The translations under genes were made by a program, and so were the position numbers. The notes beneath the pieces were generated by a model, which was not told the origin of the DNA, ran no database searches, and saw only the letters and a list, made by a program, of their open reading frames with translations. Positions 1-59,689 of a DNA stretch of 64,000 nucleotides are shown in pieces. The DNA comes from Planctomycetota bacterium (GTDB taxonomy: Bacteria; Planctomycetota; UBA1135; GCA-002686595): assembly GCA_016795205.1 (NCBI GenBank), contig JAEUHZ010000069.1, forward strand, positions 1-64,000, written 5' to 3'. Within the stretch, counting starts at the first letter, position 1. Every line of letters begins with the position of its first letter.

Positions 1-1134
1 CTTGTCCTCGGCGTACGCGATGAAGAGCAAGCGGAACAACACGACGAGCGCCATCTCGTACGTGTCGTGGAGATCCTGCGCCGTGGGCTTCTTGAGCTGG
101 CGAGCCGCGACGAGACCCTGCGCGATCTTCGGCACGACGGACAGGTAGATGCGCTCCCGCAGCTCGGCCGCGAGGTCGCCGGAGAAGCGACCCGAAGCGG
201 CGATCAGGTCGTCGAGGCTGCCGCCGGGCAAGAGGGCCTCGGCCGAGCAGAGCAGCCAGAGCAGCGCCGCGTTGTCCTCGTGCAGGAGCCCGGCGTGGCA
301 CTCGACGTAGGTCTCGGTGCGTCCGCGACGGCCCACACCGACACCGACGCGCGCGGGGTACACGCGCACCTTCGCGCCGTGCTGAATGACAACGTACGGG
401 AGGTTCTCGCGGTCGGCGACAGCGAGCGCGTAGCTGACCGGGGAGATGTCCGCGAAGCGGCCTGCTTGCAGCTCGGGTGATTCGTCGCGGTTGAGCAGGA
501 CGGCCACGGCGACCTTGCGATCCTTCGATCGCAGGATCGACGTGACGCGATCGCACGACTCGATCTGGAATCCGAGGGCCTTGAGCAGGTCGGTTCCCTT
601 GCGGTCGAGGATGCGAGACGCCTTGGCCGCCGCATCGCGCCAGTCGGCGCGCTGTCGCGCTCCCGCGCGCAGCTCGTGCGTGGCGAGGAAGCCCTCGTTG
701 CGAAGTCCGCCCAGGACGGTGTCGAGCGCGGGTAGTGAGTCGCGCAGCGCGCGGAGCGCCGTGTGCCGGTCGGCTTCGCCGAGCGCCTCGCGGCAGATGC
801 GGTCAACCTGTCGCAGATCGAGTTCGAGCCGAGCGGTCGGCTCGTCACCGGCTGGGCCGCAGAGCGCTGCCTTGCCTTCGTAGAGGACAACGAGGAGGAG
901 CGGGGCCGCGCGCCCTCCGTGTCGCGCCTTCCATGCCGAGCGGAGGTCCTGCGCGCTCGGAGCGCGCGGGTGCGTTGCGATGAGGACCTCCAAGCCGGAG
1001 GCTCCGCCGCCGAGCGCGAGGCCCGTCGGGGTGAACGGCCAGCGGTCGGCGAGCGTCACGCGGCGGAGCGGGACACCGTCGAGGAACGGCGGCTTCTCGT
1101 CCGTGTGCGATGTGGGGGAGCTGCGAGCGGTCAT
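1..1134 (-). CDS. Eco57I-like DNA methyltransferase (type IIG R-M or related), N-terminal part; cut by window edge
   Basis: The frame is open from the ATG at 1134 down to base 1 without a stop, giving the first 378 residues; the rest lies outside the window. The end of the visible part reads FRLLFIAYAEDK (residues 367-378), the helix motif that in Eco57I-like and other type IIG methylases comes just before the Rossmann SAM-binding domain. The SAM motif and NPPY motif would be beyond the edge, so catalysis cannot be confirmed. The region before it (residues about 100-360) is a mixed N-terminal domain containing LDRKGTDLLKALGFQIE, compatible with the nuclease/recognition part of such enzymes but without a motif I can name. 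It starts 9 bp after the stop of the HTH gene at 1144-1329, so the two are probably one transcript. Such enzymes methylate adenine and often also cut foreign DNA. BREX PglX or DISARM methylases are alternatives. Confidence 0.6.
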   Translation of the reverse strand, partial: MTARSSPTSHTDEKPPFLDGVPLRRVTLADRWPFTPTGLALGGGASGLEVLIATHPRAPSAQDLRSAWKARHGGRAAPLLLVVLYEGKAALCGPAGDEPTARLELDLRQVDRICREALGEADRHTALRALRDSLPALDTVLGGLRNEGFLATHELRAGARQRADWRDAAAKASRILDRKGTDLLKALGFQIESCDRVTSILRSKDRKVAVAVLLNRDESPELQAGRFADISPVSYALAVADRENLPYVVIQHGAKVRVYPARVGVGVGRRGRTETYVECHAGLLHEDNAALLWLLCSAEALLPGGSLDDLIAASGRFSGDLAAELRERIYLSVVPKIAQGLVAARQLKKPTAQDLHDTYEMALVVLFRLLFIAYAEDK

Positions 1135-1143
1135 GAGCGCGTG

Positions 1144-1329
1144 CTACGCGGGTGCTTTCTCCCGGAGCTTCGCGGCGATCCACGCGCGGAGTTCCTTCTG
1201 GGGGACGCGCCAGGACGACGCGATCTTCACGGCCGGGATCTTCCTGTCCCTGGCGAGGCGGTAGACGCTGCGCTCGGACATGTTCAGGAAGTCGGCGACC
1301 TGCTTGATGCTCAGGAGGTGTTCCTTCAT
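1144..1329 (-). CDS. Excisionase-type helix-turn-helix protein (61 aa)
   Basis: A 61-residue protein starting MKEHLLSIKQVADFLNMSER. The pattern 'SIKQVADFLNMSERSVYRLARDRKIPAVKI' followed by 'WRVPQKELRAWI' is the classic HTH_17/excisionase (MerR-like winged helix) domain: helix-turn-helix at residues 7-26, wing with W-R-V at about 40-43. These small proteins bind DNA as recombination directionality factors or as simple regulators of linked genes. An upstream in-frame start would add 18 Arg/Pro-rich residues and is less likely. It sits 9 bp ahead of the methyltransferase gene, so it may control that gene or belong to the mobile element that carries it. No integrase gene is visible next to it. 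Confidence 0.75.
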   Translation of the reverse strand: MKEHLLSIKQVADFLNMSERSVYRLARDRKIPAVKIASSWRVPQKELRAWIAAKLREKAPA

Positions 1330-1440
1330 GGGAGTGGTCCGTCTCCGGCGGGCCGGGTGCCCCGTGAGCTTGGCGAGCGGGTACAAGGATTGCCAGCCCT
1401 TCCCCCCGAGGTCGGGGCGGTTTCGGAAGGCGGGGTCCTG

Positions 1441-1457
1441 CTAGACAGCGTGTCTGC
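1441..1457. repeat. Inverted-repeat site, copy 1 (imperfect)
   Basis: Sequence CTAGACAGCGTGTCTGC. Core AGACA-GCG-TGTCT is a perfect inverted repeat; the outer bases are imperfect. It lies between the divergent HTH gene (start 1329) and the FxLYD lipoprotein (start 1569). Two better copies are at 3594-3610 and 5292-5308. Confidence 0.6.
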
Positions 1458-1568
1458 TCTGCCTGCGAAGTCCTCGCCCTGGCAGGAGTCACTCGTCTAC
1501 CGAGGGCAGCCGGTGGTCGCTGGGAGCAAACCCTCAAGCCCAGCTTCGAGGGAGTCGATGGCGAAGGG

Positions 1569-2408
1569 ATGATCCCCTGCCGCGCTCTTCCGCTGCTCCT
1601 CGCCGCCGTCGTTGGCTCATGCACTTCGGTCGCGCCGAAGCTCGACCTGCCGTCGCCCGTGGTCATCAACGATGTCCGCGTCGAGGTGACGGGCGTGCTC
1701 TCGCACTACGGACGCGGAGGATTGAGCGGGCTCAGGGGCACGGCGACGAACACGTCCGGCGAAGCGCTCTCGTACTGCATCGTCACCCTGGAACTGCTCG
1801 ATCCGTCGGGCGCGAAGATCGGCGATGCGATGGCGACGACCACGCACCTCGCCGCCGGGCAGACGTGGCGGTTCGACGCGCACAACGCCAACACGATCGA
1901 CTCGTCCGTCGAGCGGGTCAGGGTCGTGCAGGTGCAGACCGACAAGAGCCTGCTCGCCGATATTGCGCGGCCGAAGGGCACGGGGGGAGCAGCACGAGCG
2001 CCGAAGCTCGAAGTAGCCACCTCTGTCTCGGAGACCCAGCCAGCGACCACGTTCTCGGCCGACGAGCAGGCCGATCGCGTAGAACGCGCCATCGAGCGCG
2101 TCGGTGAGACTCGGCCGGTCTTCGGAGCCGCAACCGAGCCTTTCACGTTCACGATCCAGCTCGCCAAGCAGAGGGACGACGGCACGTTCGCCGCCAACTT
2201 CCAAGAGGTCGCGTTCGTCCACACCGTGGCGGGGAACCTCAAGGATGGCGTCGCGCTCTACCGCGTCGGACTCGTCGCTGGCGAACCCAGAATCGTGCTG
2301 CGCGGCAGGATGAACTCGCGGCGCTACGAGGTCTTGTGGGAGACGTGGCCCGAGAACTGGCGACGCGCGGGGAGCCCTGTCTCCGAGTGGATCAGGTTCG
2401 ACCACTGA
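1569..2408 (+). CDS. FxLYD-domain lipoprotein, 279 aa
   Basis: The N-terminus MIPCRALPLLLAAVVGSC is a lipoprotein signal with cleavage before the Cys at residue 18. Residues about 35-110 contain 'LRGTATNTSGEALSYCIVTLELLDPSG...HLAAGQTWRF', which matches the FxLYD fold (a beta-sandwich of secreted bacterial proteins in which a hydrophobic strand is followed by a Leu-Asp/Tyr motif). A Ser/Thr-rich linker (about 140-180) leads to a second, unassigned domain with several Trp residues near the C-terminus. The role is unknown; FxLYD proteins are usually cell-envelope proteins. It lies inside the island bounded by inverted-repeat copies 1 and 2 and has no partner in an operon. Confidence 0.7.
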   Translation: MIPCRALPLLLAAVVGSCTSVAPKLDLPSPVVINDVRVEVTGVLSHYGRGGLSGLRGTATNTSGEALSYCIVTLELLDPSGAKIGDAMATTTHLAAGQTWRFDAHNANTIDSSVERVRVVQVQTDKSLLADIARPKGTGGAARAPKLEVATSVSETQPATTFSADEQADRVERAIERVGETRPVFGAATEPFTFTIQLAKQRDDGTFAANFQEVAFVHTVAGNLKDGVALYRVGLVAGEPRIVLRGRMNSRRYEVLWETWPENWRRAGSPVSEWIRFDH

Positions 2409-2571
2409 CCTTGCGCATCCGTGCGCAGTGGGGCGGCTCGCGCAGCGTCTCGGACACACCCATGGGAGTGCCTACCTCCCCCCGGCGATCAGGCCCACGC
2501 AGGTGCGGTAGACAACGAGTTCGCGGGACACTCCTGCCGCGCCGCGAGCTGCGGTCGCAAGGTCTCGGCGG

Positions 2572-2862
2572 TCAACGTTTCGGTCGGCCCGCTTCTCGAA
2601 GTGCTGCCCGACTGACCCTTCGAGACCCTGCCGTCCGCGTCACGAAGTAGTCGAGCGGAAGCTCGTACACGGCCGCGAAGTCCTCCAGCTCGACGAAGTC
2701 CACGCGGCGTTCACCCAGCTCGCACTTCGAGACGTAGGTCTGGGGCTTCCCGAGCACGTCGGCCACTTCCTCCTGCGTCTTGCCGCTGTGGCGTCGCGCC
2801 GAGCGGAGACGTTCGAGGAAGGCCGCGTAGCGGTCGGTGTGAAGTGCGTGCTTTGAGCCCAT
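2572..2862 (-). CDS. XRE-family transcriptional regulator (96 aa)
   Basis: Residues about 13-70 ('FLERLRSARRHSGKTQEEVADVLGKPQTYVSKCELGERRVDFVELEDFAAVYELPLDYFV') are a complete XRE/Cro-C1 helix-turn-helix domain: Q/E-E-V-A in helix 2 and T-Y-V-S-K in the recognition helix. I chose the ATG at 2862 because a longer frame (to 2991) would read through the palindrome at 2907-2923, which is better placed as the promoter/operator. The gene is divergent from the membrane protein starting at 2990. It most likely represses its own gene and that neighbour. Proteins of this kind control prophage, plasmid and restriction-modification genes. Confidence 0.85.
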   Translation of the reverse strand: MGSKHALHTDRYAAFLERLRSARRHSGKTQEEVADVLGKPQTYVSKCELGERRVDFVELEDFAAVYELPLDYFVTRTAGSRRVSRAALREAGRPKR

Positions 2863-2906
2863 TGCCCGGCTTCGGAACCGGGCGGAGTCTGCACCCCAGG
2901 ATGGCG

Positions 2907-2923
2907 TACCCCAGTGTGGGGTA
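2907..2923. promoter_or_regulatory. Probable operator of the XRE regulator (17-bp perfect palindrome)
   Basis: TACCCCA-GTG-TGGGGTA: perfect 7-bp arms around a 3-bp centre, in the 127-bp gap between the divergent XRE gene (start 2862) and membrane-protein gene (start 2990). A half-site-like ACCCCA also occurs at 2893-2898. Size, symmetry and position are those of an XRE dimer site. Confidence 0.65.
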
Positions 2924-2989
2924 AAGGTCTGCGGGTCGTCCGTCGATAGGTGCCTCGCCGGAGGTCCCTTCCTCCGCAGGAACCAGCCC

Positions 2990-3565
2990 ATGACGAACGC
3001 AGATCAGCCCGCTCGCCCCGTCAAGCTCAAGCACCTGATCGCTGGCTCGATCGCCCTCCTTGCGATCCTGGCCGTGATGGGCATCCCGATCCTCTATGGG
3101 CTCCGCAAGGTCGGGCTGATCCACGTCGGCGGTGTCGTCGAGAGCGTGGCTTCGGACCGCGACGCCTACGACCCGGCCAACCCGCTCACGATTCGGGTTG
3201 CCGTCGAGAAGAACCGTGGACTGGACCGCTACGCGAAGGTCGAGATCCGGGCGCGCGCGTTCGTCGAGGACGGTGGCGCACGCACGCAGGTCGCCGAGTT
3301 CCGGCAGATTCCACAGGGTCGCACGCACTCGAACCTCGTGCAGTCGTGGCCGGGCACCATGGTGCCGCTCGAAGCCACAGCTCTCGACGAGGACGCGCTC
3401 AACGCGATGCGCCGCGCCGGGGAGATCGTCGTGGTCGTGGACGAGTACGAAGCCGGGAACTGCGTGGATGACGCCGTGGGCGAGTTCACCGTTCGCGTGA
3501 GCTTCTCGCTCTTCGACAAGCTCGGCAGCGTGTTCGCCTCGGAGCCCGTGTCGTCGCGGAGATGA
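2990..3565 (+). CDS. Membrane-anchored protein of unknown function, 191 aa
   Basis: I do not recognise a family. Residues 1-14 are charged, residues 15-40 ('HLIAGSIALLAILAVMGIPILYGL') form one clear membrane segment, and the remaining 150 residues read like a beta-rich outer domain ('LTIRVAVEKNRGLDRYAKVEIRARAFVED'). The orientation is probably cytoplasmic N-terminus with the large domain outside. It is transcribed away from the XRE regulator and the palindrome at 2907-2923 lies in the shared promoter region, so it is likely repressed by that regulator. It could be a structural or host-surface protein of the mobile element, but that is inference. Confidence 0.6.
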   Translation: MTNADQPARPVKLKHLIAGSIALLAILAVMGIPILYGLRKVGLIHVGGVVESVASDRDAYDPANPLTIRVAVEKNRGLDRYAKVEIRARAFVEDGGARTQVAEFRQIPQGRTHSNLVQSWPGTMVPLEATALDEDALNAMRRAGEIVVVVDEYEAGNCVDDAVGEFTVRVSFSLFDKLGSVFASEPVSSRR

Positions 3566-3593
3566 CCGCTGGGTGTGCCCGACTCGTGACTCG

Positions 3594-3610
3594 CTAGACA
3601 CCGTGTCTAG
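3594..3610. repeat. Inverted-repeat site, copy 2 (perfect)
   Basis: CTAGACAC-C-GTGTCTAG, perfect 8-bp arms around one base. It lies between the 3' ends of two convergent genes (stops at 3565 and 3646), where a promoter operator is not expected. There is no T tract, so it is not a standard terminator. Confidence 0.75.
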
Positions 3611-3645
3611 CTCCACGGCGCAGCACCCCCCTGTCTGGGCGGGCC

Positions 3646-4113
3646 TCATCTGCTACCTCCCTCCATCGCGTCGATGCCGCCGAGCTGCTTGCGGATCGAC
3701 TGCCGAATCGCCTCTGCGGTCGTCGATGCACGCGAGCGACACTCGCCGGACGCCACGCGCGAACTGTGGTTACTCCGATGGCGGTCGATCGCGTTCTTGC
3801 CCTTCGCACTGATCGGGGCGCAGAGCGCCACTTGACTGCGGAATGAGCGCGCGGGCGAGAACACCGGGCGCATGATCGGACGGCCATGCTTGCGGACGAC
3901 GCTTCGGCGCTCGTCCTTCCATGCGGCGACGACCCCGAGCCCCGGAACGCGGAGGACGTTGCCCCGCGAGACTTCGTCCACGGCAGCCTCGACCGCGTAG
4001 CTGAGCAACGTGATGACTTCATAGCGGGAGATGCCTGAGCGTCGAGCCACCGTATCGACGACGGAGTTGAACGTCTCGGCGGCCTCGGCAGTCGGAAATC
4101 CGGGGAGAGTCAT
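3646..4113 (-). CDS. HU/IHF-fold DNA-binding protein (155 aa), coupled to the replication protein
   Basis: Residues 17-97 follow the HU/IHF pattern: N-terminal helices 'VVDTVARRSGISRYEVITLLSYAVEAAVDEVSRG', the conserved 'GNVLRVPGLGVVAAW' beta turn, an arm with basic residues (RRSVVRKHGRPI) and the closing 'PVFSPARSFRSQV'. A basic, Ser/Arg-rich C-terminal tail of about 55 residues is not part of normal HU. The ATG at 4113 overlaps the stop of the replication gene (4110) as ATGA, so the two proteins are translationally coupled. HU-fold proteins bend DNA and assist replication initiators and recombinases, which fits the context. Divergence from house-keeping HU, plus the tail, suggests a phage or plasmid version. 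Confidence 0.65.
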   Translation of the reverse strand: MTLPGFPTAEAAETFNSVVDTVARRSGISRYEVITLLSYAVEAAVDEVSRGNVLRVPGLGVVAAWKDERRSVVRKHGRPIMRPVFSPARSFRSQVALCAPISAKGKNAIDRHRSNHSSRVASGECRSRASTTAEAIRQSIRKQLGGIDAMEGGSR

Positions 4114-5327
4114 GTTGCGATCCGGGATCGTGTGGCGGCGAACTGGCTGGTGGGCCACGCGAGCTGGAGCATGTCCGTCTCCTGCTCGCGCAGGAAGTGC
4201 GCGGCAAGCAAGCGGCGGTACTTCCGAACCGTCGGGCGCGAGTGCGTGCTCCCCAGCACCGCAATCAGCTCGGGGTGGTCCGCAAGATGAGCGACCGCGC
4301 AGCGCTGGATGAACGAGCCATCGCACTCCGGGACGAGCAGCGAGCGCCGACCCGTCAGGGCGAGGACTTCGCTCGCCAGCGCCTCATTCAGCAACCAGTT
4401 TCGGACCGGCGCGTAGGAGATCGTTGTTCCGCGATCGGCGCGGAAGGTGGCGAACGGAAGCGCGACCGTCGGCCCGATGCCCAACTGCTCTGCCCTCGCG
4501 CGGATCGCGCTGAGAGCCGTGCGAACGGACTTCGCGCACTTGTACCGGAACTCGAACCGCATCGTTCCAGGTGGAGATAGTTCGATCAGCTTGTGTCGCA
4601 CGCGGATAGCGAGCTTGTTCCGACGAGGTCGCTCGTGCGCGTCGTAGACGATGAAGTCTCGGTCGGAGCCGAAGATGGCGACTCCGGTATTGCCGTAGAT
4701 GTCCGGGGCCTTGCGGATCAAAGGGTGTCGCACGTGTCGCAACGCTTCTATGAGCAGCCCCTTCTCTGCGGCGAAGTTCACCGACAGGTCCAGCCGAGTG
4801 ACGTGCCAGCGCTGGCCGTACCGCTCCATCTCGCAGCGATCGGTCGTCCTCGGCAGAAGGGAGAATCGGGCGTGAGTCAGCAACTCCACGGCGTCGTGAT
4901 CTCCGGCTTCTGCTTGTGTCACGTTCGTGAGTCCGAGCACGCGCGGAAGCGAGCCCTCGACGGTGATGCACTCCTCGTAGAACGAGATGCGAACGCCGTC
5001 TTCGTGTCGAATGAGCCGGTGCTGCTCGCGGTGCCTCGTGTTCCACGGAACGTGCGCGCGGAAGCAGCGCCCCGACCGGAGTAGGTCCTCGATGTCGCGC
5101 TCGATGACGGCGTCGCGTCGCTCGTCACGAAGTCGTCGGATGTCGAGACGCAGCTTCATCGTGTCGATGACTCCGTCGTCGGTGCGAGGGATCGGTGAGT
5201 CGGTGATCCCGGCAACGCGAGAAAGGATCTTTCTCGCTGCTCGGGAGTTACTTGCACCACCGGGCGGCGTGGTGAAGCGCGTGGCCGTGTACTGGACACG
5301 GTGTCTAGTCGTGGTGTAGGTTGCCAT
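4110..5327 (-). CDS. Probable replication initiation protein, phage/plasmid gene II/X-like family
   Basis: A 405-residue protein with the layout of filamentous-phage gpII/gpX and related plasmid Rep proteins: 'VIDTMKLRL' near the start (residues 53-61), 'VEGSLPRVLGLTNV' (123-136) and 'WHVTRLDLSVNFA' (174-186), then a basic C-terminal half ('MRFEFRYKCAKSVRTAL'). In the family such proteins nick one strand at the origin for rolling-circle replication. I do not see an unmistakable catalytic Tyr motif. The ATG at 5327 gives a 56-residue leader containing inverted-repeat copy 3; the ATG at 5159 is an alternative, but the family-typical IDT just before it argues for an upstream start. Coupled by a 4-bp overlap to the HU-like gene. 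Confidence 0.5.
   Translation of the reverse strand: MATYTTTRHRVQYTATRFTTPPGGASNSRAARKILSRVAGITDSPIPRTDDGVIDTMKLRLDIRRLRDERRDAVIERDIEDLLRSGRCFRAHVPWNTRHREQHRLIRHEDGVRISFYEECITVEGSLPRVLGLTNVTQAEAGDHDAVELLTHARFSLLPRTTDRCEMERYGQRWHVTRLDLSVNFAAEKGLLIEALRHVRHPLIRKAPDIYGNTGVAIFGSDRDFIVYDAHERPRRNKLAIRVRHKLIELSPPGTMRFEFRYKCAKSVRTALSAIRARAEQLGIGPTVALPFATFRADRGTTISYAPVRNWLLNEALASEVLALTGRRSLLVPECDGSFIQRCAVAHLADHPELIAVLGSTHSRPTVRKYRRLLAAHFLREQETDMLQLAWPTSQFAATRSRIAT
5292..5308. repeat. Inverted-repeat site, copy 3
   Basis: CTGGACAC-G-GTGTCTAG on the plus strand (on the minus strand CTAGACAC-C-GTGTCCAG), one mismatch between the arms. It lies at the 5' end of the replication gene: inside the first codons if the 5327 start is used, upstream of the gene if a later start is used. 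Confidence 0.65.
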
Positions 5328-5709
5328 CCGGCTTGTCCTTCACCGCGCGGCGTCGTCCCTGAGAAGTCGGAGCCGCTACGGTTGGAGATCAGTCGAGCGC
5401 GTCGAGTCACGAAGCTGTGGCCCGACGCGCTCGCGTTTCGGCACAGCGACCACGAGCAGGGCTCGTTGGTCGTGCATTGCGTGGTGCTCGTCCCGTCGAG
5501 CGCACGCACCGCGACCTCGCCGTCGTCGAGACCCGTGGGGGCGGCGCGCAGCCAGGGCTCAGCGGGTTCGTGGACTGCGTGCGGTTGGGGCGGGGGCGGC
5601 CGAGTCGCGTCGAGCGTGGTGGCTCGGCGACCGCGAAAACGGCTTCCTACCGGGCAGGGAGGGGCGATCGTCATGCGGCCAGCAACCTCCGCAGGGCCAG
5701 CGGGTCCAA
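5328..5709. other. Gap between the island and the chromosome-like region
   Basis: No convincing gene. On the minus strand a short frame ending at 5671 reads 'ETRIELFVQGAAQLDPLALRRLLAA' and could be the tail of a broken protein, but no family is recognisable. The base composition changes around here from the slightly lower GC of the island to the very GC-rich chromosome, so the right end of the island probably lies here. No tRNA or direct-repeat attachment site was seen. Confidence 0.4.
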
Positions 5710-7584
5710 TTGCGCTGCCCCCTGCACGAAGAGTTCAATCCGCGTCTCGTTCCCCCGACCATCTCCTCGTCCCGAGGCTGCTGCACCTGCGGCGCACGCG
5801 CGCCGCCCCAGACCCCTGTGGACCCCGCGACCGCTCCCGTCGCCGCCGGGCGCCCCAGCGCGCGCCACCCGGTCGTCCTGGCCGCGCTCGTCGCGCTGAT
5901 CCTGGCCGCGGCCGGACTGCGCTGGGTGGCCCTCGACGCCGGGCTGCCCCACGTGCGCGAGGCTGACGCGGCCATGGTCCACTTCGCCGCCTTCCACGCC
6001 AGGCCACCGGGGGCTCCCGTCACGGAGGCCGTGTACCCCTCGCGGGTCTATCCCCAGTTTCTGGGACGGTTGCTCGGCGTGCTGCCGGGGTCCAGCTACG
6101 CCGAAGAGGCTCCGCCTGGGGCCCAGCTCGGGGCGCACCAGGCGGCTGCTGCCGAACCCTACTGGCGCGCGCGGCTGCTCATCGCGCTGCTGTCGCTGCT
6201 CGCGATCCCGTTCACCTACCTCTTTGCGCGCAACTGGCTCGAGCCCGGCTGGTCGCTGTTCGCGGCCTGCCTGCCGGCGACGAGCATGAACTTCCTCGAG
6301 GTGTCCGTGGTCGCCAAGCCGCACGGCGCCTTGGCCGGCCTGGCGGCCGTGGCCCTGTGGGCGATCGTGCGGCTGGTCCGGGAGGCGGGTTGGCGCGCCT
6401 ACCTCGCGGCCGGCACGGCCACCGGCGCCGCCCTGGCCACGCTGAACAGCGGTGCGTTCCTGCTGCCCGCGCTGGGGCTCGCGCACGTCCTCGGGTGGCG
6501 TTCCGACCGGGTCCGCGCGCGCTGGGCGCGCGTCGGCCTGGCGGTTGCCCTGTGCGGTGGGTTCTTCCTGCTCGGCTATGCCTACCTGTTCGCGCCACGC
6601 CCGGAAGCGGAGCGCGTCGCAGGAGCGCTGCAGTTCGGCGAGAACGCGATCTACTGGCACACCTGGGGCCTCGGGAACATCCGGAACGTCGCGCCACGCC
6701 TGTTCGCGTTCGAGCCGGTGCTCACGATCCTCGCCGGCGTCGCGCTGACTTGGCTCACGCTGAAGTTGGCGTTCGACCCTGGCGCGCGCCGCGCGGCGCG
6801 GCGCCCCGAGGTCCTGGTCGTCGCGCTGTACTTCGTGATCTGGTTGATCCTGTTCGGGCTCCACGAGCGTTTCTTCCCGCGCTACGCCCTGCCCGTCCTG
6901 CCGGTGCTGTGCGTGCTCGCCGCGCACCCGCTGCGCGCGTTGGCTCGAGCACTCGCGGCGCGGGTCCGCGCGCCGGTGGCGAGCCAGCTCGTCGCGCCCG
7001 CGCTGGCGCTCTTCGCGCTGGTCTACCCGGCGCGCGCCACGTGGCAGGCCGCCTGGATCCGCGCCGTGCCCGACACGTACGAGCAGGCGGCAGCCTGGAT
7101 CGAAGAGCACCTCGACCCTGCCCACGGTCCGGTGGCGGTGGACATGACGCTGGGCCTGCCCTTGGTGGCACGCCGCGAGAGCCTCGCGGCCTGGCCGTCC
7201 TGGTCGCTGCAACCCTGGCAGCGCTACCAGCTCGAGATCCTGACCCGCGAGCTGCCAGGCCCCGCCTGGGATCTGCGACCGATCCACTTCCGGGGCATCC
7301 AGCACGACCGCCGCATCGACGCCGGGGAGATCGACCAAGTGCTCGCGCTCGTCCGACCGCGCTACGTCGTCGTGTCCGTCCCGGACCCCGACTCCGCCAC
7401 GCGGGACGCGACCCGGGAGGCCGTGCGCGCGCGCTGCGGTCCACCGCTCGCGAGCTTCTCGCCGCTGCGCGCCGGGCGTGCCGAGGCGGCCTTCCGGACC
7501 CGCGATTTCCACCTGGACCACCTGGCCCACGTCCTGGCCTCGGCCCGCCTGGGGCCACCCATCGAGGTCTACGCCGTGCCCTGA
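5710..7584 (+). CDS. GT-C fold membrane glycosyltransferase (ArnT/PMT-like), 624 aa
   Basis: A polytopic membrane protein with about 9-11 hydrophobic segments (first at 'VVLAALVALILAAAGLRWVAL', residues 55-75) followed by a C-terminal soluble domain of about 170 residues. The early acidic motif 'HVREADAAMVHF' after helix 1 sits where GT-C transferases of the ArnT/PMT/DUF2723 kind carry their metal- or catalysis-related Asp/Glu. Such enzymes move a sugar from a polyprenyl-phosphate donor on the outer face of the membrane. A His-Glu-Arg-Phe-Phe-Pro-Arg-Tyr stretch ('HERFFPRYALPVLPVL') is typical of the late loop. The true start is uncertain: the first 36 residues look non-coding in character and a GTG at about 5818 is a good alternative. 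A second GT-C protein lies beyond rho. Confidence 0.75.
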   Translation: MRCPLHEEFNPRLVPPTISSSRGCCTCGARAPPQTPVDPATAPVAAGRPSARHPVVLAALVALILAAAGLRWVALDAGLPHVREADAAMVHFAAFHARPPGAPVTEAVYPSRVYPQFLGRLLGVLPGSSYAEEAPPGAQLGAHQAAAAEPYWRARLLIALLSLLAIPFTYLFARNWLEPGWSLFAACLPATSMNFLEVSVVAKPHGALAGLAAVALWAIVRLVREAGWRAYLAAGTATGAALATLNSGAFLLPALGLAHVLGWRSDRVRARWARVGLAVALCGGFFLLGYAYLFAPRPEAERVAGALQFGENAIYWHTWGLGNIRNVAPRLFAFEPVLTILAGVALTWLTLKLAFDPGARRAARRPEVLVVALYFVIWLILFGLHERFFPRYALPVLPVLCVLAAHPLRALARALAARVRAPVASQLVAPALALFALVYPARATWQAAWIRAVPDTYEQAAAWIEEHLDPAHGPVAVDMTLGLPLVARRESLAAWPSWSLQPWQRYQLEILTRELPGPAWDLRPIHFRGIQHDRRIDAGEIDQVLALVRPRYVVVSVPDPDSATRDATREAVRARCGPPLASFSPLRAGRAEAAFRTRDFHLDHLAHVLASARLGPPIEVYAVP

Positions 7585-8123: not shown

Positions 8124-9782
8124 GTGGCATCCGACGAGACGACCCCGAACCGACGCCCGCGCCCGAACCGGGCCGGCACCCCTGCGGCCACGCCGCGCCC
8201 CTCCGCGCCCTCCGAGGACGGCGGTGGCGAGGCGCCGCGCCCCGAGGTTGGCGTGGCCGGTGAGGGCGGCGCGGACTGGCGTCGCCCCGAGCGGCGCCGG
8301 GGCCAGGGGCGGCGTGGCGGCCGACGCCGGCGGCGCCAGCGCGCAGGCCCCGAGAGCGGCGGCGACGCGGCGGGGACGCAGGCCGCGGTCGTCGAGGAGT
8401 CGGGCACCGAGGCCGCGCCGGAGTCGCCCGGGCAGGGGCGCTTCGGCTTCGGCGAGGACGCTTCCGCGGAGGAGGGTGCCGTCCAGGTCGAGTTCGACGA
8501 CGGTCTCGAGGGCGAACTCGACGAGGCTTCCGGCGAGCCGCGCCGCGAGGCCGCGCCGCGCGGGTCGCGACCCGCGCAGGGCGGCCGGCCGGGCCCCGGC
8601 CGGGCCGGTGGTCCGCGCGGCGAGCGCCCGGGGGCCGCCCGCCCGCCGCAGCCTCCCGCCGAGCCGCTGCCGGCCGAGCTCTCCGGCGTCCTGATCCTGG
8701 AGCACGGTGGCTTCGGCACGTTGCGCCAGGAGCAGACGAACTGGCTGCCCGCGCGCACGGACGTGTTCGTTCCGCTGCGGCTGATCCAGCAGCACAAGTT
8801 GCGCGAGGGCTCCCTGGTCGCCGGGCGCGTGTCGCGCGGGCAGAAGCACAAGTATGCGCTCGTCGAGGTGACGACCGTCGACGGGAAGAACCCCAACGAG
8901 GTCAAGAACGCACCCGCGTTCAAGAACCTCACGACGATCGACCCCGACTTCCACTACGCGACGGGTGACGTGACCGGCGAGGTCTCGATGCGCATCGTCG
9001 ACCTCTTGTGCCCGATCGGTCGCGGCCAGCGCGGCCTGATCGTCGCGCCGCCGCGCACGGGCAAGACCACGCTCTTGAAGCAGTTCGCGAAGGGCATCGA
9101 GCTCGGCTACCCCGACGTGCACCTGTTCGTGCTGCTCGTCGACGAGCGCCCCGAGGAGGCCACGGACTGGCAACGTTCGACCAAGGGCAAGGTCTTCGCC
9201 AGCACCTCGGACGAGTCCGCCAAGACGCACGTGCAGCTGGCCGAAGCCGTGTGGACGCGCTGCACGCGGCTGGTCGAGCTGGGTCACGACGTCGTGCTGC
9301 TCCTCGACTCGCTCACGCGCCTCTCGCGCGCCTACAACAATCTCTCGGCCGGCAGCGGCCGCACGATGTCGGGCGGCCTCGACAGCCGCGCCATGGAGCG
9401 TCCGCGCCAGATCTTCGGCAGCGCGCGGAACACGGAGAAGGCCGGCTCCCTGACGATCCTGGGCACGGCGCTGATCGACACGGGCAGCCGCATGGATCAG
9501 CTCATCTTCGAGGAGTTCAAGGGCACGGGGAACATGGAGCTCGTGCTCTCCCGCCGCCTGGCCGACCGCCGCATCTTCCCGGCGATCGACATCGAGAAGT
9601 CGGGCACGCGCAAGGAGGAGAAGATCCTCTCCTCGAAGAAGCTCAAGAGCGTCCACATCCTGCGGCGCGTGCTGCAGCGCATGAACCCCTACGAGGCCAT
9701 GGAGCTCCTGATCACGAAGCTCGACGAGGTCGCGCAGACGGACGACTTCCTGAAGCGCTTCGAGGTCGATCCGGAGGCCTGA
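8124..9782 (+). CDS. rho: Transcription termination factor Rho with long disordered N-terminal extension
   Basis: Rho is the hexameric RNA helicase that ends transcription. The C-terminal 370 residues are unmistakable: RNA-binding cold-shock-like domain at about 185-240 ('GVLILEHGGFGTLRQEQTNWLPARTDVFV'), Walker A APPRTGKT (308-315), 'DERPEEATD' (340-348), Walker B VVLLLDSLTR (390-399), then the R-loop and 'GSARNTEKAGSLTILGTALIDTGSRMDQLIFEEFKGTGNMEL'. Residues 1-180 are a low-complexity Arg/Gly/Pro/Glu-rich arm instead of the short N-terminal helices of E. coli Rho; similar arms occur in actinobacteria and planctomycetes. I chose the GTG at 8124 (VASDETTPNRR) because GAGAG precedes it and because the residues upstream are atypical. 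Total about 552 aa. Confidence 0.96.
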   Translation: MASDETTPNRRPRPNRAGTPAATPRPSAPSEDGGGEAPRPEVGVAGEGGADWRRPERRRGQGRRGGRRRRRQRAGPESGGDAAGTQAAVVEESGTEAAPESPGQGRFGFGEDASAEEGAVQVEFDDGLEGELDEASGEPRREAAPRGSRPAQGGRPGPGRAGGPRGERPGAARPPQPPAEPLPAELSGVLILEHGGFGTLRQEQTNWLPARTDVFVPLRLIQQHKLREGSLVAGRVSRGQKHKYALVEVTTVDGKNPNEVKNAPAFKNLTTIDPDFHYATGDVTGEVSMRIVDLLCPIGRGQRGLIVAPPRTGKTTLLKQFAKGIELGYPDVHLFVLLVDERPEEATDWQRSTKGKVFASTSDESAKTHVQLAEAVWTRCTRLVELGHDVVLLLDSLTRLSRAYNNLSAGSGRTMSGGLDSRAMERPRQIFGSARNTEKAGSLTILGTALIDTGSRMDQLIFEEFKGTGNMELVLSRRLADRRIFPAIDIEKSGTRKEEKILSSKKLKSVHILRRVLQRMNPYEAMELLITKLDEVAQTDDFLKRFEVDPEA

Positions 9783-9880
9783 GCGGGGCTGGGGTCGAGA
9801 GTGCGGCCCCGGCCCAGGGTCGGTCGGGCGAGCTTCGGACCCTGGCACCCCTCTGGACAGCCTGCCAGACTCGCCTGTCG

Positions 9881-11611
9881 ATGCCCGAGTCGAAGACCCT
9901 GCGGTTCGCCGCGCTCCTGCTCCTGGTCCTGCTCCCGCTCGCGCTGCGTCTGTTCCCGCTGAAGCACGGCGGCGAGCGCGGCTACGTACCGGACGCGCAC
10001 ATGGTGCGCCAGGCGCTGGGGATGGCGCGCGACCGCGATCCCGTGCCGCCCGTGGGGCAGTACTCGACCTACCCGAACCTCGTGCCGTACCTCGCGCTGC
10101 CGCTCTACGGGGCGCAGTTCGCGGCCGGCGCGCTGCGCGGGGAGTGGAGCGGCGCACGCGAGTACGGCGAGCACGTGCTCGAGCACCCGCAGCGCGCCGC
10201 GCACGTCATGCGGCTCGTGGTGGCGCTGTGTGGCGCGCTGACCGCCTGGGCCGCGTTCCGCGCGGCGCGCGCCGCGGGGCTGCGCGCGGGTGCCTGGGCC
10301 GCGGCTTGGCTGGTCGCGACCAGCCTGCTCCACCTGCAGTTCTCGACCCACGAGCGACCGTGGGTGCCCATGGTCCTGTTCATCACGCTCTCGGCTTGGG
10401 CCGCGATCGTGCATGCGACGAGCGCACGCCCGCTGCACCTGGCGCTCTCCGGCCTCGCCGCGGGGCTGGCCTTCGCCTGCCACCAATCGGGCCTCGCCGC
10501 GCTCGGCATCCCGTTCCTGGCCTGGCTGCTCGGACCGCCGGGCTGGGGCCCGCTCGCGCTGCGCGAGCGCCTCGTGGGGGGGACACTCGCCGTCCTGTCG
10601 TTCGCCGCAGCCGGGCTCGTGCTGGGACATCCCTATCTGCTCGTCCACGGCCGCACGCCGACGGAGGCGGTCGTCGGGGAGGGCGCGGCCGACGCCAGCG
10701 TGGGCGGGATGAGCGTGGTCTTCGGCCTGCGCTTCGAGTCCCTGGCGCGGCTCGCGCCGGTGCTCTGCGGCTACGACCCGGTGCTCGTCCTGCTGGGCCT
10801 CGGCGGGCTGGCCTGGGCGCTGCGCGACCGCCGCCTGCGCGCCGTGGTGCTCTTCGCGCTGGCCTGGGGCGCGTTCTTCCTCTTGAACCCGAGCGATCAC
10901 GTCCGCTATCTGCTGCCGTTCGCGGTGCTGCTCGCGCTCCCGGCGGGGATGTGCGTCGAGCGGTTGCTCGAGCAGCCGCTGGGCCGCCTCGCGACGCCCT
11001 TCGTGCTGGCCGTGCCGCTCGTGCAGGCCGTGCGCTTCGTGGTCGTGCTCGCGCGGCCGGACACGCGCGCGATCGCGGAGGTCAAGCTCGCGTCGCTCGC
11101 CACGGGAGCGCGCGTGGCGATCGACCGCTACGGTCCGTACGCGGACCTGGATCTCGCCGGCCTCGCCGTCCTGGAGCGGGTGCGCGCGACCTGCGGCGAG
11201 GGACTGCGGCCGCGCGAGCAGCACCGCAAGCTCGAGCTCGCCGCCGGCCGCGCGCGGGGCGGGGTCGACGCCGTGCGCGTCGAGGAGCTCCTGAGCTTCG
11301 ACGAGCGCGCGGGCACCGTGGGCGTCCGGGACTGCCTGCGTCGCGAGCTGGGTGACGACCCGCGCGCGCTGCTCGCGGCGTTGGGCGTCACCCACGTGCT
11401 GCTCGTCGATCGGCGGCCAGGTGACGGCCAGCCGAGCCTCTGCGCCGCGGTCGCGGTCGCGGGCCGCCCCCTGTGGGTCGTGGATCCCGCGCGTTCCCCG
11501 GCCGGGACGCGCGAGGCGTTCCTGCCGACCGAGATGGACTTCCCGCTCACGGCGCTGTGGAGCGTCGACCGGCCCGGGCCGCGGCTCGAACTCGTCGCGC
11601 TGGAACGCTGA
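9881..11611 (+). CDS. GT-C fold membrane glycosyltransferase, 576 aa
   Basis: A polytopic membrane protein starting MPESKTLRFAALLLLVLLPLALRLF with about 10 membrane helices and a C-terminal soluble part from about residue 400. After helix 1 it has 'YVPDAHMVRQALGMARDRD', the Asp-containing outer loop expected of ArnT/PMT-like transferases that use polyprenyl-linked sugars. It shares overall layout with the protein at 5710-7584, so the two are likely paralogues. The ATG at 9881 lies 98 bp after rho and is preceded by CCAGACT, a weak -10 match. Acceptor and donor cannot be told from sequence; protein or lipid glycosylation in the cell envelope is the general expectation. Confidence 0.75.
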   Translation: MPESKTLRFAALLLLVLLPLALRLFPLKHGGERGYVPDAHMVRQALGMARDRDPVPPVGQYSTYPNLVPYLALPLYGAQFAAGALRGEWSGAREYGEHVLEHPQRAAHVMRLVVALCGALTAWAAFRAARAAGLRAGAWAAAWLVATSLLHLQFSTHERPWVPMVLFITLSAWAAIVHATSARPLHLALSGLAAGLAFACHQSGLAALGIPFLAWLLGPPGWGPLALRERLVGGTLAVLSFAAAGLVLGHPYLLVHGRTPTEAVVGEGAADASVGGMSVVFGLRFESLARLAPVLCGYDPVLVLLGLGGLAWALRDRRLRAVVLFALAWGAFFLLNPSDHVRYLLPFAVLLALPAGMCVERLLEQPLGRLATPFVLAVPLVQAVRFVVVLARPDTRAIAEVKLASLATGARVAIDRYGPYADLDLAGLAVLERVRATCGEGLRPREQHRKLELAAGRARGGVDAVRVEELLSFDERAGTVGVRDCLRRELGDDPRALLAALGVTHVLLVDRRPGDGQPSLCAAVAVAGRPLWVVDPARSPAGTREAFLPTEMDFPLTALWSVDRPGPRLELVALER

Positions 11612-11744: not shown

Positions 11745-12221
11745 TCAGTAGCGGTCGTCGTATCCGCCGCCGCCGCCACGGCCGCCGCCGTAGCCGCCGC
11801 GACCGCCGCCGCCGCCACCGTAGCCGCCGCGACCACCGCCGCCGCCGCCACCGTAGCCGCCGCCGCCACCGCCGTAGCCACCGCGACCACCGCCGCCGCC
11901 GCCACCGTAGCCACCGCCGCCGCCGCCGTAGCCGCCGCGACCGCCACCGCCGCCGCCGCCGCCGCGCGCCGGCCGCTCTTCCGCTTCGTTGACACGCAGC
12001 GGACGACCGTCGAGCTGCTGGCCATCGAGCTCGGCGATCGCCGCCTTGGCGTCCTGTTCGTTCGCCATCGTCACGAAGGCGAAGCCCTTCGGACGGCCCG
12101 TTTCACGATCCGTGATCATGGCGATCTCGCGCACCTGACGACCCCCGTTTTCGAGCGCCGCGCGCAGCGACGCCTCGGTGGTCTGGAAGTTGAGATTGCC
12201 GACGTAGAGACGCGTACCCAT
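11745..12221 (-). CDS. RRM RNA-binding protein with Gly-rich tail (158 aa)
   Basis: One RNA-recognition motif fills residues 3-80: RNP2 is LYVGNL (5-10) and RNP1 is KGFAFVTM (45-52), with the aromatic residues that stack on RNA bases. The rest (86-158) is almost only Gly, Tyr and Arg in repeated GGYGG and GRGGY units, ending YDDRY. This is the layout of cyanobacterial Rbp proteins and of many bacterial cold-induced RNA-binding proteins that act as RNA chaperones. The start at 12221 is fixed by the RRM; a 12-bp palindrome TTCGAATTCGAA (12221-12232) overlaps the start codon, and GAGG lies 11 bases upstream. Confidence 0.92.
   Translation of the reverse strand: MGTRLYVGNLNFQTTEASLRAALENGGRQVREIAMITDRETGRPKGFAFVTMANEQDAKAAIAELDGQQLDGRPLRVNEAEERPARGGGGGGGGRGGYGGGGGGYGGGGGGGRGGYGGGGGGYGGGGGGGRGGYGGGGGGRGGYGGGRGGGGGYDDRY
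11757..11965. repeat. Triplet-rich repeat encoding the Gly/Tyr/Arg tail
   Basis: On the plus strand the region is runs of CCG, CCA and TAG-CC units; on the coding (minus) strand it is GGN/TAC/CGC codons. It explains the low-complexity pattern and is likely to vary in length between strains. Not a CRISPR array. Confidence 0.8.
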
Positions 12222-12232
12222 TCGAATTCGAA
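12221..12232. promoter_or_regulatory. 12-bp palindrome over the RRM gene start
   Basis: TTCGAATTCGAA is a perfect palindrome whose last base is the A of the ATG at 12221 (minus strand). In RNA it can fold on itself or dimerise at the ribosome-binding region. Regulatory function is a guess from position. Confidence 0.35.
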
Positions 12233-12527
12233 CCTCGGTCACTTGCCTGCCCAACCGACGCGAGGTCCATTCCCAGCGCGTTCGGCGAGCACGAACGGAA
12301 GAGAATGGGTGCGGGGGCGGGGGCTGACCAGGGAAAAGTGAAGATTCCACAAGGCGGCCCTCCACAGCCCCGCGGGCGGCCTGGAGCGCTCGACCGCGGC
12401 CTCCGAGCGGCCGCATCCGGCGTTGCCCCCGAGCCGCTCGGGGCCGGTCGCGGGCAGCGCGGGCCCTTCCCGGCCCCGGGCGCGGCGCCGCGGGGAGCCC
12501 AGGCCGTCAACATCGGCCGCGGCGGCC
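12222..12527. other. Gap between NUDIX and RRM genes
   Basis: 306 bp, G/C-rich, containing the 5' leader of the RRM gene and the end of the NUDIX transcript. A possible -10 (CATTCT on the minus strand, about 80 bases before the RRM start) is the only promoter-like sequence. No small gene seen. Confidence 0.4.
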
Positions 12528-52225: not shown

Positions 52226-53590
52226 ATGGACCTGGTCGAGCTCCTCAAGCGCCCCGAGGGCAAGACCCTGGAGTTCAAGCGTGATCTGTCTTCGCCGGAT
52301 GGGGCGCTCAGGACGATCGTTGCCTTCGCCAATACGGCGGGCGGAACGCTGCTCGTCGGCGTGGAGGACCGCAGCCGCCATGTCCGCGGCGTGGCCGACG
52401 CACTGGACCTGGAGGAGCGACTTGCGAGCCTCGTCAGCGACAGCATCCGTCCCCGTGTCGTCCCCGAGATCGAGATCCTGCCGTGGCGCCGCACGCAGGT
52501 GCTGGCCTTGCAGGTCCATCCCAGCCCGAGCCGTCCGCATCACCTGATCCGGGAAGGGGCACCCGCCGGCGTCTATGTCCGCGTGGGCTCGACGAACCGC
52601 CGTGCCGACGCGGAGCTGATCGAGGAACTCAGCCGGTTCGCGCGCGGCGAGGGGTTCGACGAGCAGCCGCTGCCGGGTCTCGACTCGGAAGCCCTGGACT
52701 TCCGAGCAGCTTCCGAGTCGTTCGCGTCCGTCCGTGTCCTCGCCCGCCGCGACCTGGAGACGCTGCGACTGGTCACGGAGCATCAGGGCCGCAGAGTGCC
52801 GACCGTGGGTGGCATGATCCTCTTTGGCCGGGAGCGTGAGCGGCACTTCCCGGACGCGTGGATTCAGGCCGGTCGCTTCGGGGGCACCGAGAGGAGCCGC
52901 ATCCTGGACCGCACCGAGATCCGCTCCATCCCCGCGCGTGGCGTCGAGGAAGCCGTCGCCTTCGTGCAGAAACACGCTTGGCACGGCGCCGCGATCGGCG
53001 CGGTGCGCCGGAAGGACCGCTGGAGCGTGCCGCCGGAGGCGGTGCGCGAGGCGGTCATCAACGCGGTGGTCCACACCGACTACGCTCAGCGCGGCGCGCC
53101 GATCCGCCTGTCGATCTTCGACGACCGAATCGAGATCGAGAATCCGGGTCTCCTGCCCTTCGGCCTCACGATCGAGGATCTGCCCCGCGGCGTCTCGAAG
53201 CTGCGCAACCGGGTGATCGGCCGGGTCTTTCACGCGCTCGACCTGATCGAGCAATGGGGGAGCGGCGTTCAGCGCATGACCGCTGCGTGCCACGCGGCCG
53301 GCCTCCCCGTGCCGGTCTTCGAGGAGATCGCCACGCGCTTTCGCGTCACGATTCGCACGACCCGAGTGGGTCCGACGGTCGTCGAGGACACGGACCAGGC
53401 CATCCTGGACGCACTCAGCGCGGCCAAGGGACTCGCCACGAGCGAGGTCGCCGCGGCGATCGGTCTCTCTCCGCGCGCGACTCGCACGCGCCTCGCCCGC
53501 CTCGTCGGTCGCGGCCTCGTGCGCGAGATCGGCACCGGGCCGCAGGATCCGCGGCGGCGATACTTCCTGGCAGAGGGAGGCCCCGCATGA
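52226..53590 (+). CDS. Schlafen/AlbA_2-domain, ATP-binding (HATPase_c_4) regulator-like protein (454 aa)
   Basis: Three parts. Residues about 10-125 are the Schlafen AlbA_2 domain ('LVELLKRPEGKTLEFKRDLSSPDGALRTIVAFANTAGGTLLVGVEDRSRHVRGV', with the hallmark E-F-K and A-F-A-N-T-x-G-G). Residues about 265-350 are the HATPase_c_4 region ('VREAVINAVVHTDYAQRGAPIRLSIFDDRIEIENPGLLPFGLT' and 'IEQWGSGVQRM'). The last 65 residues are a winged helix ('AILDALSAAKGLATSEVAAAIGLSPRATRTRLARLVGRGLV'). Proteins of this type are often called transcriptional regulators and are frequent in R-M and defence loci. It overlaps hsdR by ATGA, so it is made with the R-M enzyme; it may control it or add a second nuclease-like activity. 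Confidence 0.9.
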   Translation: MDLVELLKRPEGKTLEFKRDLSSPDGALRTIVAFANTAGGTLLVGVEDRSRHVRGVADALDLEERLASLVSDSIRPRVVPEIEILPWRRTQVLALQVHPSPSRPHHLIREGAPAGVYVRVGSTNRRADAELIEELSRFARGEGFDEQPLPGLDSEALDFRAASESFASVRVLARRDLETLRLVTEHQGRRVPTVGGMILFGRERERHFPDAWIQAGRFGGTERSRILDRTEIRSIPARGVEEAVAFVQKHAWHGAAIGAVRRKDRWSVPPEAVREAVINAVVHTDYAQRGAPIRLSIFDDRIEIENPGLLPFGLTIEDLPRGVSKLRNRVIGRVFHALDLIEQWGSGVQRMTAACHAAGLPVPVFEEIATRFRVTIRTTRVGPTVVEDTDQAILDALSAAKGLATSEVAAAIGLSPRATRTRLARLVGRGLVREIGTGPQDPRRRYFLAEGGPA

Positions 53591-56457: not shown

Positions 56458-58019
56458 GCGTATCAACTCGCCTGCCCCCGGGCTGGGCTGCGATACCGCT
56501 ACGAGACCTTGGGGAGTGGAGTGGCGGAGGCACGCCGTCGAAGAGCGTCTCTTCGTTCTGGACGGCTGGATCGATCCCTTGGGTATCGCCCAAGGACATG
56601 AAGGTCCCGGTGATTTCCGACTCGCTTGACCACATCACCGATGACGCAGTTCGCGCCAGCACCGTCAAGCTGATCCCAGCGGGCAGCGTGCTCATCGTGA
56701 CTCGAAGCGGCATCCTCGCTCACACTTTGCCGGTCGCGCGCACGGCGGTCGCGGTCACCGTAAACCAGGACATCAAGGCGCTCACGCCAACGCCACCCAT
56801 TGACCCCGACTTCGTCGCTTGGGGCGCGCGGGCACTCGGATGGCCCATCCTGAACGCGTGCAGCAAAGACGGTACTACCGTCGCCAGCGTAGATACCACG
56901 CTGCTTCAAGACTTCCGGCTTCCCGTCGCGCCAGCGGCCGAGCAGCACCGCATCGTCTCTGCCATCGAGTCCTACTTCACCCGGCTCGACGACGCGGTGG
57001 CGACGCTGGAGCGGGTGCAGCGCAACCTGAAGCGCTACCGGGCCTCGGTGCTCAAGGCCGCGGTCGAAGGGCGGCTGGTGCCGACCGAGGCGGAGCTGGC
57101 CCGCGCCGAGGGCCGCAGCTACGAGCCGGCCTCGGTACTCCTCGCGCGCATCCTCGCCGAACGCCGCCGCCGCTGGGAGGAAGCCGAGCTGGCGAAGATG
57201 ACCGCCCGGGGCAAGGCGCCGAAGGACGACAGGTGGAAGGCGAAGTATGTGGAGCCGGTCGCGCCGGATACGAGTGAGCTGCCCGAGCTTCCGGAGGGGT
57301 GGTGCTGGGCGACGGCGGATCAACTCGCAATCGTGGGGACTGGAGCAACTCCGAAGCGCGGAGATGCTCGATTCTGGAGCGGCGGCCAAGTGCCGTGGGT
57401 GACCAGTGCCGTAGTCAACGACTCGCTTGTAGCAACACCCTCCGAGTTCGTCACGCATACCGCGCTCCGCGAAACCAACCTTACCCTATATCCACCCGGC
57501 ACCCTGCTGGTCGCCATGTACGGCGAAGGCAAGACCCGCGGACGCGCAACGACATTGGGGATAGAGTCTGCCACCAATCAGGCCCTAGCCGCTCTTGAGT
57601 TGCGAGGTACCGCCGATTATCTCCGAGACTGGCTGTTGCGCTTCCTAGAGCACAACTACCTCGAGCTCCGTAGAGCGGCTTCGGGCGGGGTTCAACCAAA
57701 CTTGAACCTCGGAATCGTCCGGGCGATCTGCGTGCCGCTTCCTCCGGTAGCAGAACAACGCCGAGTCAGCGAAGAAGCCGATCGGTCTTTGTCGATTGCC
57801 CACGCGACGTACGAAGCGCTGACTGCGAACGAGTTGAAGGCGAGCCGCCTCCGCCAATCCATCCTCAAGTGGGCCTTCGAGGGCCGCCTCGTGGACCAGG
57901 ACCCCACGGACGAGCCGGCTTCCGTCCTCCTCGAACGCATCCGCGCCGAGCGCGCATCCGCCACCGTCACGCCGCCGCGCCGAGCGCGCCGTACGAAGAA
58001 GGGAACCCCGAAGTCATGA
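56454..58019 (+). CDS. hsdS: Type I restriction enzyme, S (specificity) subunit (521 aa)
   Basis: Two target-recognition domains, each followed by a conserved helical spacer. TRD1 about 1-155 ('LPPGWAAIPLRDLGEWSGGGTPSKS', 'LPVAPAAEQHRIVSAIESYFTRLDDAVATLERVQRNLKRYRASVLKAAVEGRLV'), TRD2 about 280-430 ('LPEGWCWATADQLAIVGTGATPKRGD', 'VCVPLPPVAEQRRVSEEADRSLS...KWAFEGRLVDQDPTDEPASVLLERI'). Each TRD recognises one half of a split asymmetric DNA site. The TRD codon usage is less GC-biased than the flanks, usual for exchanged TRDs. ATGA overlap with hsdR and hsdM. Confidence 0.95.
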   Translation: MSVSTRLPPGWAAIPLRDLGEWSGGGTPSKSVSSFWTAGSIPWVSPKDMKVPVISDSLDHITDDAVRASTVKLIPAGSVLIVTRSGILAHTLPVARTAVAVTVNQDIKALTPTPPIDPDFVAWGARALGWPILNACSKDGTTVASVDTTLLQDFRLPVAPAAEQHRIVSAIESYFTRLDDAVATLERVQRNLKRYRASVLKAAVEGRLVPTEAELARAEGRSYEPASVLLARILAERRRRWEEAELAKMTARGKAPKDDRWKAKYVEPVAPDTSELPELPEGWCWATADQLAIVGTGATPKRGDARFWSGGQVPWVTSAVVNDSLVATPSEFVTHTALRETNLTLYPPGTLLVAMYGEGKTRGRATTLGIESATNQALAALELRGTADYLRDWLLRFLEHNYLELRRAASGGVQPNLNLGIVRAICVPLPPVAEQRRVSEEADRSLSIAHATYEALTANELKASRLRQSILKWAFEGRLVDQDPTDEPASVLLERIRAERASATVTPPRRARRTKKGTPKS

Positions 58020-59542: not shown

Positions 59543-59689
59543 GCGGTGGGCATCGGCCACCCGGGGGCTGGTTCACCCTGTTCACGTAGGCCACCCGGTC
59601 AGCACCGGGCGGGCGACCAACAACATCATGCAGCGGGCGGCGTTGCGCGCCGCCTCGGATCCTGAGCGTTCACCAGACTCCGTAGAGCA

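Follow-up and report, generated by a model that had tools for sequence, protein, structure and literature searches.

A tRNA-Pro island of Planctomycetota carries a predicted Rep_trans-type nickase paired with a tailed HU-like protein

Positions 1–5761 of the 64,000-nucleotide stretch of Planctomycetota DNA analysed here (the window) form the right end of a genomic island of at least 12.5 kb at tRNA-Pro(CGG), and we consider it fairly probable that this end carries a Rep_trans-type nickase and an HU-like protein serving replication or mobilisation of the island after its excision. What this reading rests on was observed directly: the identity and linkage of the genes, the conservation of the active site, the limits of the island and its empty site in a related genome. 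The host assembly comprises 4.6 Mb in 84 contigs, and the first position of the window is one end of contig C48; genomes, contigs and loci used for comparison are denoted G, C and L. The central features are these:

3646–4113, minus strand: tailed HU-like DNA-bending protein, 155 aa, in ATGA overlap with Rep (HU profile, conserved neighbour)
4110–5327, minus strand: Rep, a Rep_trans/Phage_CRI-type nickase-like initiator, 405 aa (profile match, conserved active-site residues)
5328–5470, no strand assigned: candidate origin (dso/oriT), non-coding (conservation against G032, hairpins)
5394–5433, no strand assigned: perfect 11-bp inverted repeat, CGAGCGCGTCG/CGACGCGCTCG, with an 18-nt loop, identical in G032
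5652–5761, plus strand: right island end (attR), imitating the tRNA-Pro 3' end, GAGTTCAATCC...CCCCCGACCA; same end in G032, G049 and G004

The boundaries of the island follow from comparison with carriers and a non-carrier. Within attR, the core CCCCGACCA (5753–5761) is identical to tRNA-Pro, and outside it the window continues with a glycosyltransferase-like gene (5818–7584) and then rho. The other end lies on host contig C23, where a flank gene is followed by tRNA-Pro, a large serine recombinase overlapping the end of the tRNA gene, and a probable efflux operon, probably a metal-efflux cargo, cut by the contig end; C23 and C48 were joined through the island by synteny rather than by a read. 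In G032 a single contig, C33, shows this order, flanked by tRNA-Pro on one side and the same att end on the other. In the same-genus genome G001, which has no Rep, homologues of the C23 flank gene and of the glycosyltransferase-like gene, tRNA-Pro(CGG) and rho lie side by side and form an empty site, whose tRNA-Pro(CGG) matches that of the host at 78 of 78 positions. G032, G049 and G004 share the att end with differing outer flanks, and G049 (C81 plus C71) and G004 (att end beside rho) appear to use the same tRNA-Pro site. That no integrase was visible, as an earlier note on this DNA remarked, is thus true of the window but not of the island, whose serine recombinase lies on C23. Other loci with Rep or HU carry, at tRNA-Pro, Gly or Met, a tyrosine integrase, which adjoins the tRNA gene in G123, G147, G296, G087 and G127 C6.

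A reading of the conserved 112 bp at 5652–5763 as the C-terminus of a recombinase was dropped, there being no long gene at any copy and the empty-site comparison identifying the segment as an att end; Rfam gave no match for it. The att end does encode a short conserved peptide, GNETRIELFVQGAAQLDPLALRRLLAA, on the minus strand (5671–5757), and short ends resembling it occur in G111, G093, G047 and G012, with no longer gene there. Further into the window, downstream of rho, an ORF at 11745–12416 (minus strand) combines, by eye, an RNA-recognition-like N-terminal part with a long glycine-rich repeat tail, and positions 53000–60000, with a GC content of 0.66–0.69 against about 0.73, may be a second acquired region.

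Judged by its sequence profile, the 405-aa protein is the first member of an unannotated Planctomycetota family whose closest match is Rep_trans. Its ORF has codon-position GC values of 0.65/0.50/0.79. A profile of ten family members matched a profile built from six pT181-type Rep_trans proteins with E=1.4e-5 and a probability of 80%, over 80 columns that cover the catalytic half only; against seven inovirus gene II proteins the same comparison gave a non-significant E=0.38, and integrase, serine-recombinase and column-shuffled controls all gave E>=0.29. None of 11 members matches the Pfam Rep_trans model (PF02486), and the window protein matches nothing in Pfam (including PF05144, Phage_CRI) or PHROGs. 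The G219 member does reach PF05144 weakly (E=0.0099; 17.1 bits, below the cut-off of 21.7) and matches phrog_702, 'replication protein', with E=1.6e-6. The profile HMM search that the earlier note proposed therefore finds nothing with the window sequence itself and a weak Phage_CRI match with one relative. Its description of a gene II/X-like replication protein can be kept at the superfamily level, since profile comparison and active-site conservation make the protein a gene II/Rep_trans-type initiator, with Rep_trans as its closest profile match.

Conservation within the family points to a specific chemistry. Across 11 divergent members D55, Y228 and E259 never vary and D180 hardly does, and we predict Y228 to be the catalytic residue and D55, D180 and E259 to be metal ligands. 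In Rep_trans structures (RepDE), D46, D142 and E214 hold the metal and Y191 is the nucleophile (PMC4797284); hhalign places D180, Y228 and E259 of Rep on RepC D142, Y191 and E214, and the correspondence of D55, in the first strand of Rep, to D46 comes from motif order only. Like Rep_trans proteins (PF02486; pT181 RepC/RepD, ICEBs1 NicK/MobT), window Rep would thus combine a catalytic tyrosine with three acidic metal ligands, in the shared motif contexts R-x-D-L, x-x-Y-D/N and R-x-E. Unlike them, the family lies below detection by the Pfam model, is linked to an HU gene and is carried by Planctomycetota tRNA islands, and the window subgroup lacks the equivalents of R189 and K193, which help religation in RepD and are I226 and A230 in window Rep; the K193 equivalent is kept in L030, L115, L116 and L118, and distant members have YDKG. 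No conserved His pair of the HUH type (H-hydrophobic-H) occurs across the 11-member alignment. An AlphaFold model built from an alignment of three sequences reached a pLDDT of 34. Motif order also resembles that of Phage_CRI/gene II (PF05144), to which the G219 match belongs; unlike the setting of filamentous-phage gene II, no phage genes were found nearby.

The closest copy of Rep, at 86% protein identity, is on C33 of G032, a genome of another genus, and a paralogue with 29% identity lies on C9 of the host genome itself. Divergent members occur in G032 (C11), G049, G123, G127, G147, G152, G219 and G296, the last from another family and 28% identical to window Rep; the copy in G090 is a fragment. 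The two relatives with named records are Planctomycetota MAGs, and no relative was found among 50,697 phage records, 72,556 plasmids or IMG/VR.

Immediately downstream, the HU-like gene overlaps rep by 4 bp on the minus strand (HU ATG at 4113–4111, Rep TGA at 4112–4110), as the earlier note had seen. The HU fold it proposed is borne out by the family profile, which matches solved HU proteins in the PDB with E=8e-10, and not by the single window sequence, whose Bac_DNA_binding match falls below the Pfam cut-off; the basic tail it called unusual is real and common to the family. This C-terminal tail, of about 50–60 aa, carries an RHRSNH motif in which H112, N115 and H116 are invariant. The protein thus shares the core of HU/IHF (PF00216) by profile and differs from chromosomal HU in its tail and in its scores: against a tailed-HU profile, across 141 related genomes, tailed copies score 96–233 bits and chromosomal-type HUs 30–42.

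The pair recurs. Where a Rep locus has usable flanks, a tailed HU is present in seven of ten cases, adjacent on the same strand in five and with the ATGA overlap in three: besides the window, these are G032 L025 (Rep 8880–10097, HU 10094–10558) and G296 (Rep 4823–6013, HU 4374–4826), both with the same 4 bp. On C9 and G032 C11 the two genes share a strand with 76–95 bp between them, in G049 they are separated by a lipoprotein gene, and on C42 of G127 they are convergent. Counted by genome, Rep and tailed HU are found together much more often than chance predicts, with five sharing both and one carrying each alone (Fisher P=8e-8, 141 genomes; P=5e-6 with the G090 fragment excluded). A Rep_trans profile match and a linked gene pair were therefore both found, and the earlier note's core observation stands on each. 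Its further idea, a direct coupling of Rep and HU as an origin-opening pair, stays a guess, because three islands with an integrase but no detectable Rep of this family also carry a tailed HU (G032 C2, G087 C29 and G127 C6), which in turn is absent at three Rep loci (G123, G219 and G152).

Those same six loci lend some weight to a different role, in which HU serves the integrase as an IHF-like factor, supplied by the island itself, that bends DNA in the recombination complex, and the place of HU beside Rep is a convenience of the operon. IHF is a classical partner of tyrosine integrases, and all three Rep-less islands have a tyrosine integrase, two of them (G087 C29 and G127 C6) with an adjoining tRNA gene and an XRE gene. 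The ATGA overlap, however, persists across families whose Reps are 28% identical, and three sister islands, including that of the window, use a large serine recombinase, a type that usually needs no IHF. We regard this role as a serious possibility, about one that we would expect to prove right in a minority of such cases, and keep to the reading in which HU and Rep form a replication or mobilisation module.

Upstream of rep, non-coding DNA is conserved more strongly than the genes: relative to the G032 island, identity is 94% over 5328–5462, against 88% for Rep, 84% for HU and 66% for the adjacent non-coding 5463–5650. The 11-bp inverted repeat sits 67 bp upstream of the Rep ATG, a second hairpin lies at about 5446–5472, and folding of the candidate origin as DNA gives z=-2.96 for the minus strand and -1.4 for the plus strand. 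An inverted-repeat arm of at least 10 bp lies upstream of four of ten Rep genes, a modest excess over the 7.8% of random stretches that have one. Most likely, to go by these sequence features, Rep nicks within 5328–5470, and the island, once excised, thereby replicates like a plasmid or is mobilised. The conservation of this segment also weighs against rep being a degenerate remnant that no longer nicks, in an island moved by its recombinase alone. Such decay would fit the fragmentary G090 copy and the missing counterparts of R189 and K193 in the window subgroup; it does not fit the intact 405-aa frame, the 86% protein identity to G032 and the retention of all four predicted catalytic positions, and we think it improbable.

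The remaining genes of the island within the window are as follows:

1–1134, minus strand: N-terminal part of a type IIG restriction enzyme-methyltransferase, cargo, cut by the contig end (PADLOC E=3.9e-68)
1144–1329, minus strand: HTH_17 protein, AlpA/excisionase-like (family match)
1569–2408, plus strand: DUF3426-like protein with a lipobox-like signal, common to three sister islands
2572–2862, minus strand: XRE repressor (HTH_3/HTH_31); the ORF is open from 2991, with a likely start, MGSKHALH, at about 2862
2908–2922, no strand assigned: ACCCCAGTGTGGGGT, the likely auto-operator of XRE, placed likewise ahead of the XRE gene in G032 and G296
2990–3565, plus strand: single-helix membrane protein, island-specific, the only other copy found being in the G032 island

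What follows the HTH_17 gene is a restriction-modification (R-M) or defence operon in three of the islands; in G296 it is Rep. The defence systems directly behind it in sister islands are unrelated, being Hma-like (L091, 11627–18361), type I R-M (L030, 1–6576) and type IIG (window, 1–1329), as if this cargo were swapped from island to island. A palindrome ACCCC-N5-GGGGT lies just upstream of XRE in distant elements (window 2908–2922, L025 at 11264, L119 at 1499) and is probably an auto-operator.

Pfam and PHROG scans found no coat, Zot-like or adsorption gene among the island proteins scanned, a set bounded by the C23–C48 gap, which agrees with the earlier note's remark on the genes neighbouring Rep that no major coat protein or Zot-like ATPase is present. 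An integrated inovirus or other single-stranded-DNA phage genome, to which the distant kinship of Rep with gene II proteins (PF05144, E=0.01 in one member) might point, is so improbable that we reject it, given the lack of coat and Zot matches, a cargo of R-M and probable metal efflux, the absence of Rep relatives from the 50,697 phage records and IMG/VR, and a large serine recombinase at a tRNA-Pro with a known empty site. What had been taken for a small replicon or inovirus-like element is instead a tRNA-Pro genomic island, because its site is found empty in G001.

Integrative elements with their own Rep are a known class, of which the window island is a variation of moderate novelty. Like int-xis-rep elements (pSAM2/AICE, PICI, IME type), the Rep islands have an integrase adjoining a tRNA gene, AlpA/HTH_17, Rep and XRE; unlike them, they add a tailed HU, the window family has a large serine recombinase, and no conjugation gene was identified among the island genes scanned. 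A 5.8-kb element of similar content, with an integrase, HTH_17 and a Rep_trans-like Rep, was also seen in a tRNA-Arg of G298 (L137, 7432–13284), with a 48-bp direct repeat.

A separate DNA signal runs through these islands. The 15-bp palindrome TAGACA-NCG-TGTCTA occurs in five of them and hardly anywhere else in the genomes searched, with three copies in the window:

1442–1456, no strand assigned: TAGACAGCGTGTCTG, between the HTH_17 and DUF3426-like genes
3595–3609, no strand assigned: TAGACACCGTGTCTA, between the convergent membrane-protein and HU genes
5293–5307, no strand assigned: TGGACACGGTGTCTA, inside the first codons of Rep

One more host copy is on C23 at 49712, and clusters occur in G032 (C2, 22923–44079; C33, 158899–175316), G049 (C71 and C81) and G025 (C228). 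The 35 sites share the 15-bp core and no conserved flanks, and are found in front of genes, in the gaps between convergent ones and, in a few cases, within a gene. A serine recombinase is the only gene family common to all five islands. Three candidate binders appear unlikely: XRE, which has its own conserved upstream operator, ACCCC..GGGGT; Rep, since its loci on C9, C11, G123 and G127 have no palindrome and the Rep-less G025 island does; and a host regulator, since no site occurs in G001, from the same genus, and hardly any in other Planctomycetota that do not carry the islands. Nor are the palindromes established as exact cassette boundaries: several breaks in homology lie 6–100 bp from a palindrome without consistently falling at one, and some sites are intragenic. 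It is a speculative suggestion, to which we assign a low probability, that they mark the units of a system not seen before, for cassette exchange or for control of the whole island, in which a recombinase or DNA-binding protein of the island acts. Between two of the palindromes on C33 of G032 lies a gene (L095, 4678–5307) for a 209-aa tyrosine recombinase that has no part other than the catalytic domain.

Taken as a replication or mobilisation module, the Rep–HU pair would work as follows. Excision and integration would be the work of the large serine recombinase that C23 carries at the tRNA end, with the XRE protein keeping the island repressed while integrated; rep and the HU-like gene would be cotranscribed at the far end. 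After excision, Rep may nick one strand at the hairpin origin through Tyr228, becoming covalently attached to it, and the nicked strand could then enter rolling-circle replication, single-strand transfer of the kind performed by the NicK/MobT relaxases of ICEs, or both. HU would let the reaction proceed by bending DNA, either at the origin or in the recombination complex.

These results supply a likely function and a mobile context for a family that Pfam, PHROGs and PADLOC do not recognise, and the TAGACA palindromes give a separate lead to an island-wide DNA signal. They describe a Planctomycetota island family in which a Rep_trans-like nickase is paired with its own HU alongside a cargo of R-M and probable metal efflux, and they make testable the question of whether an island-borne HU serves replication or recombination.
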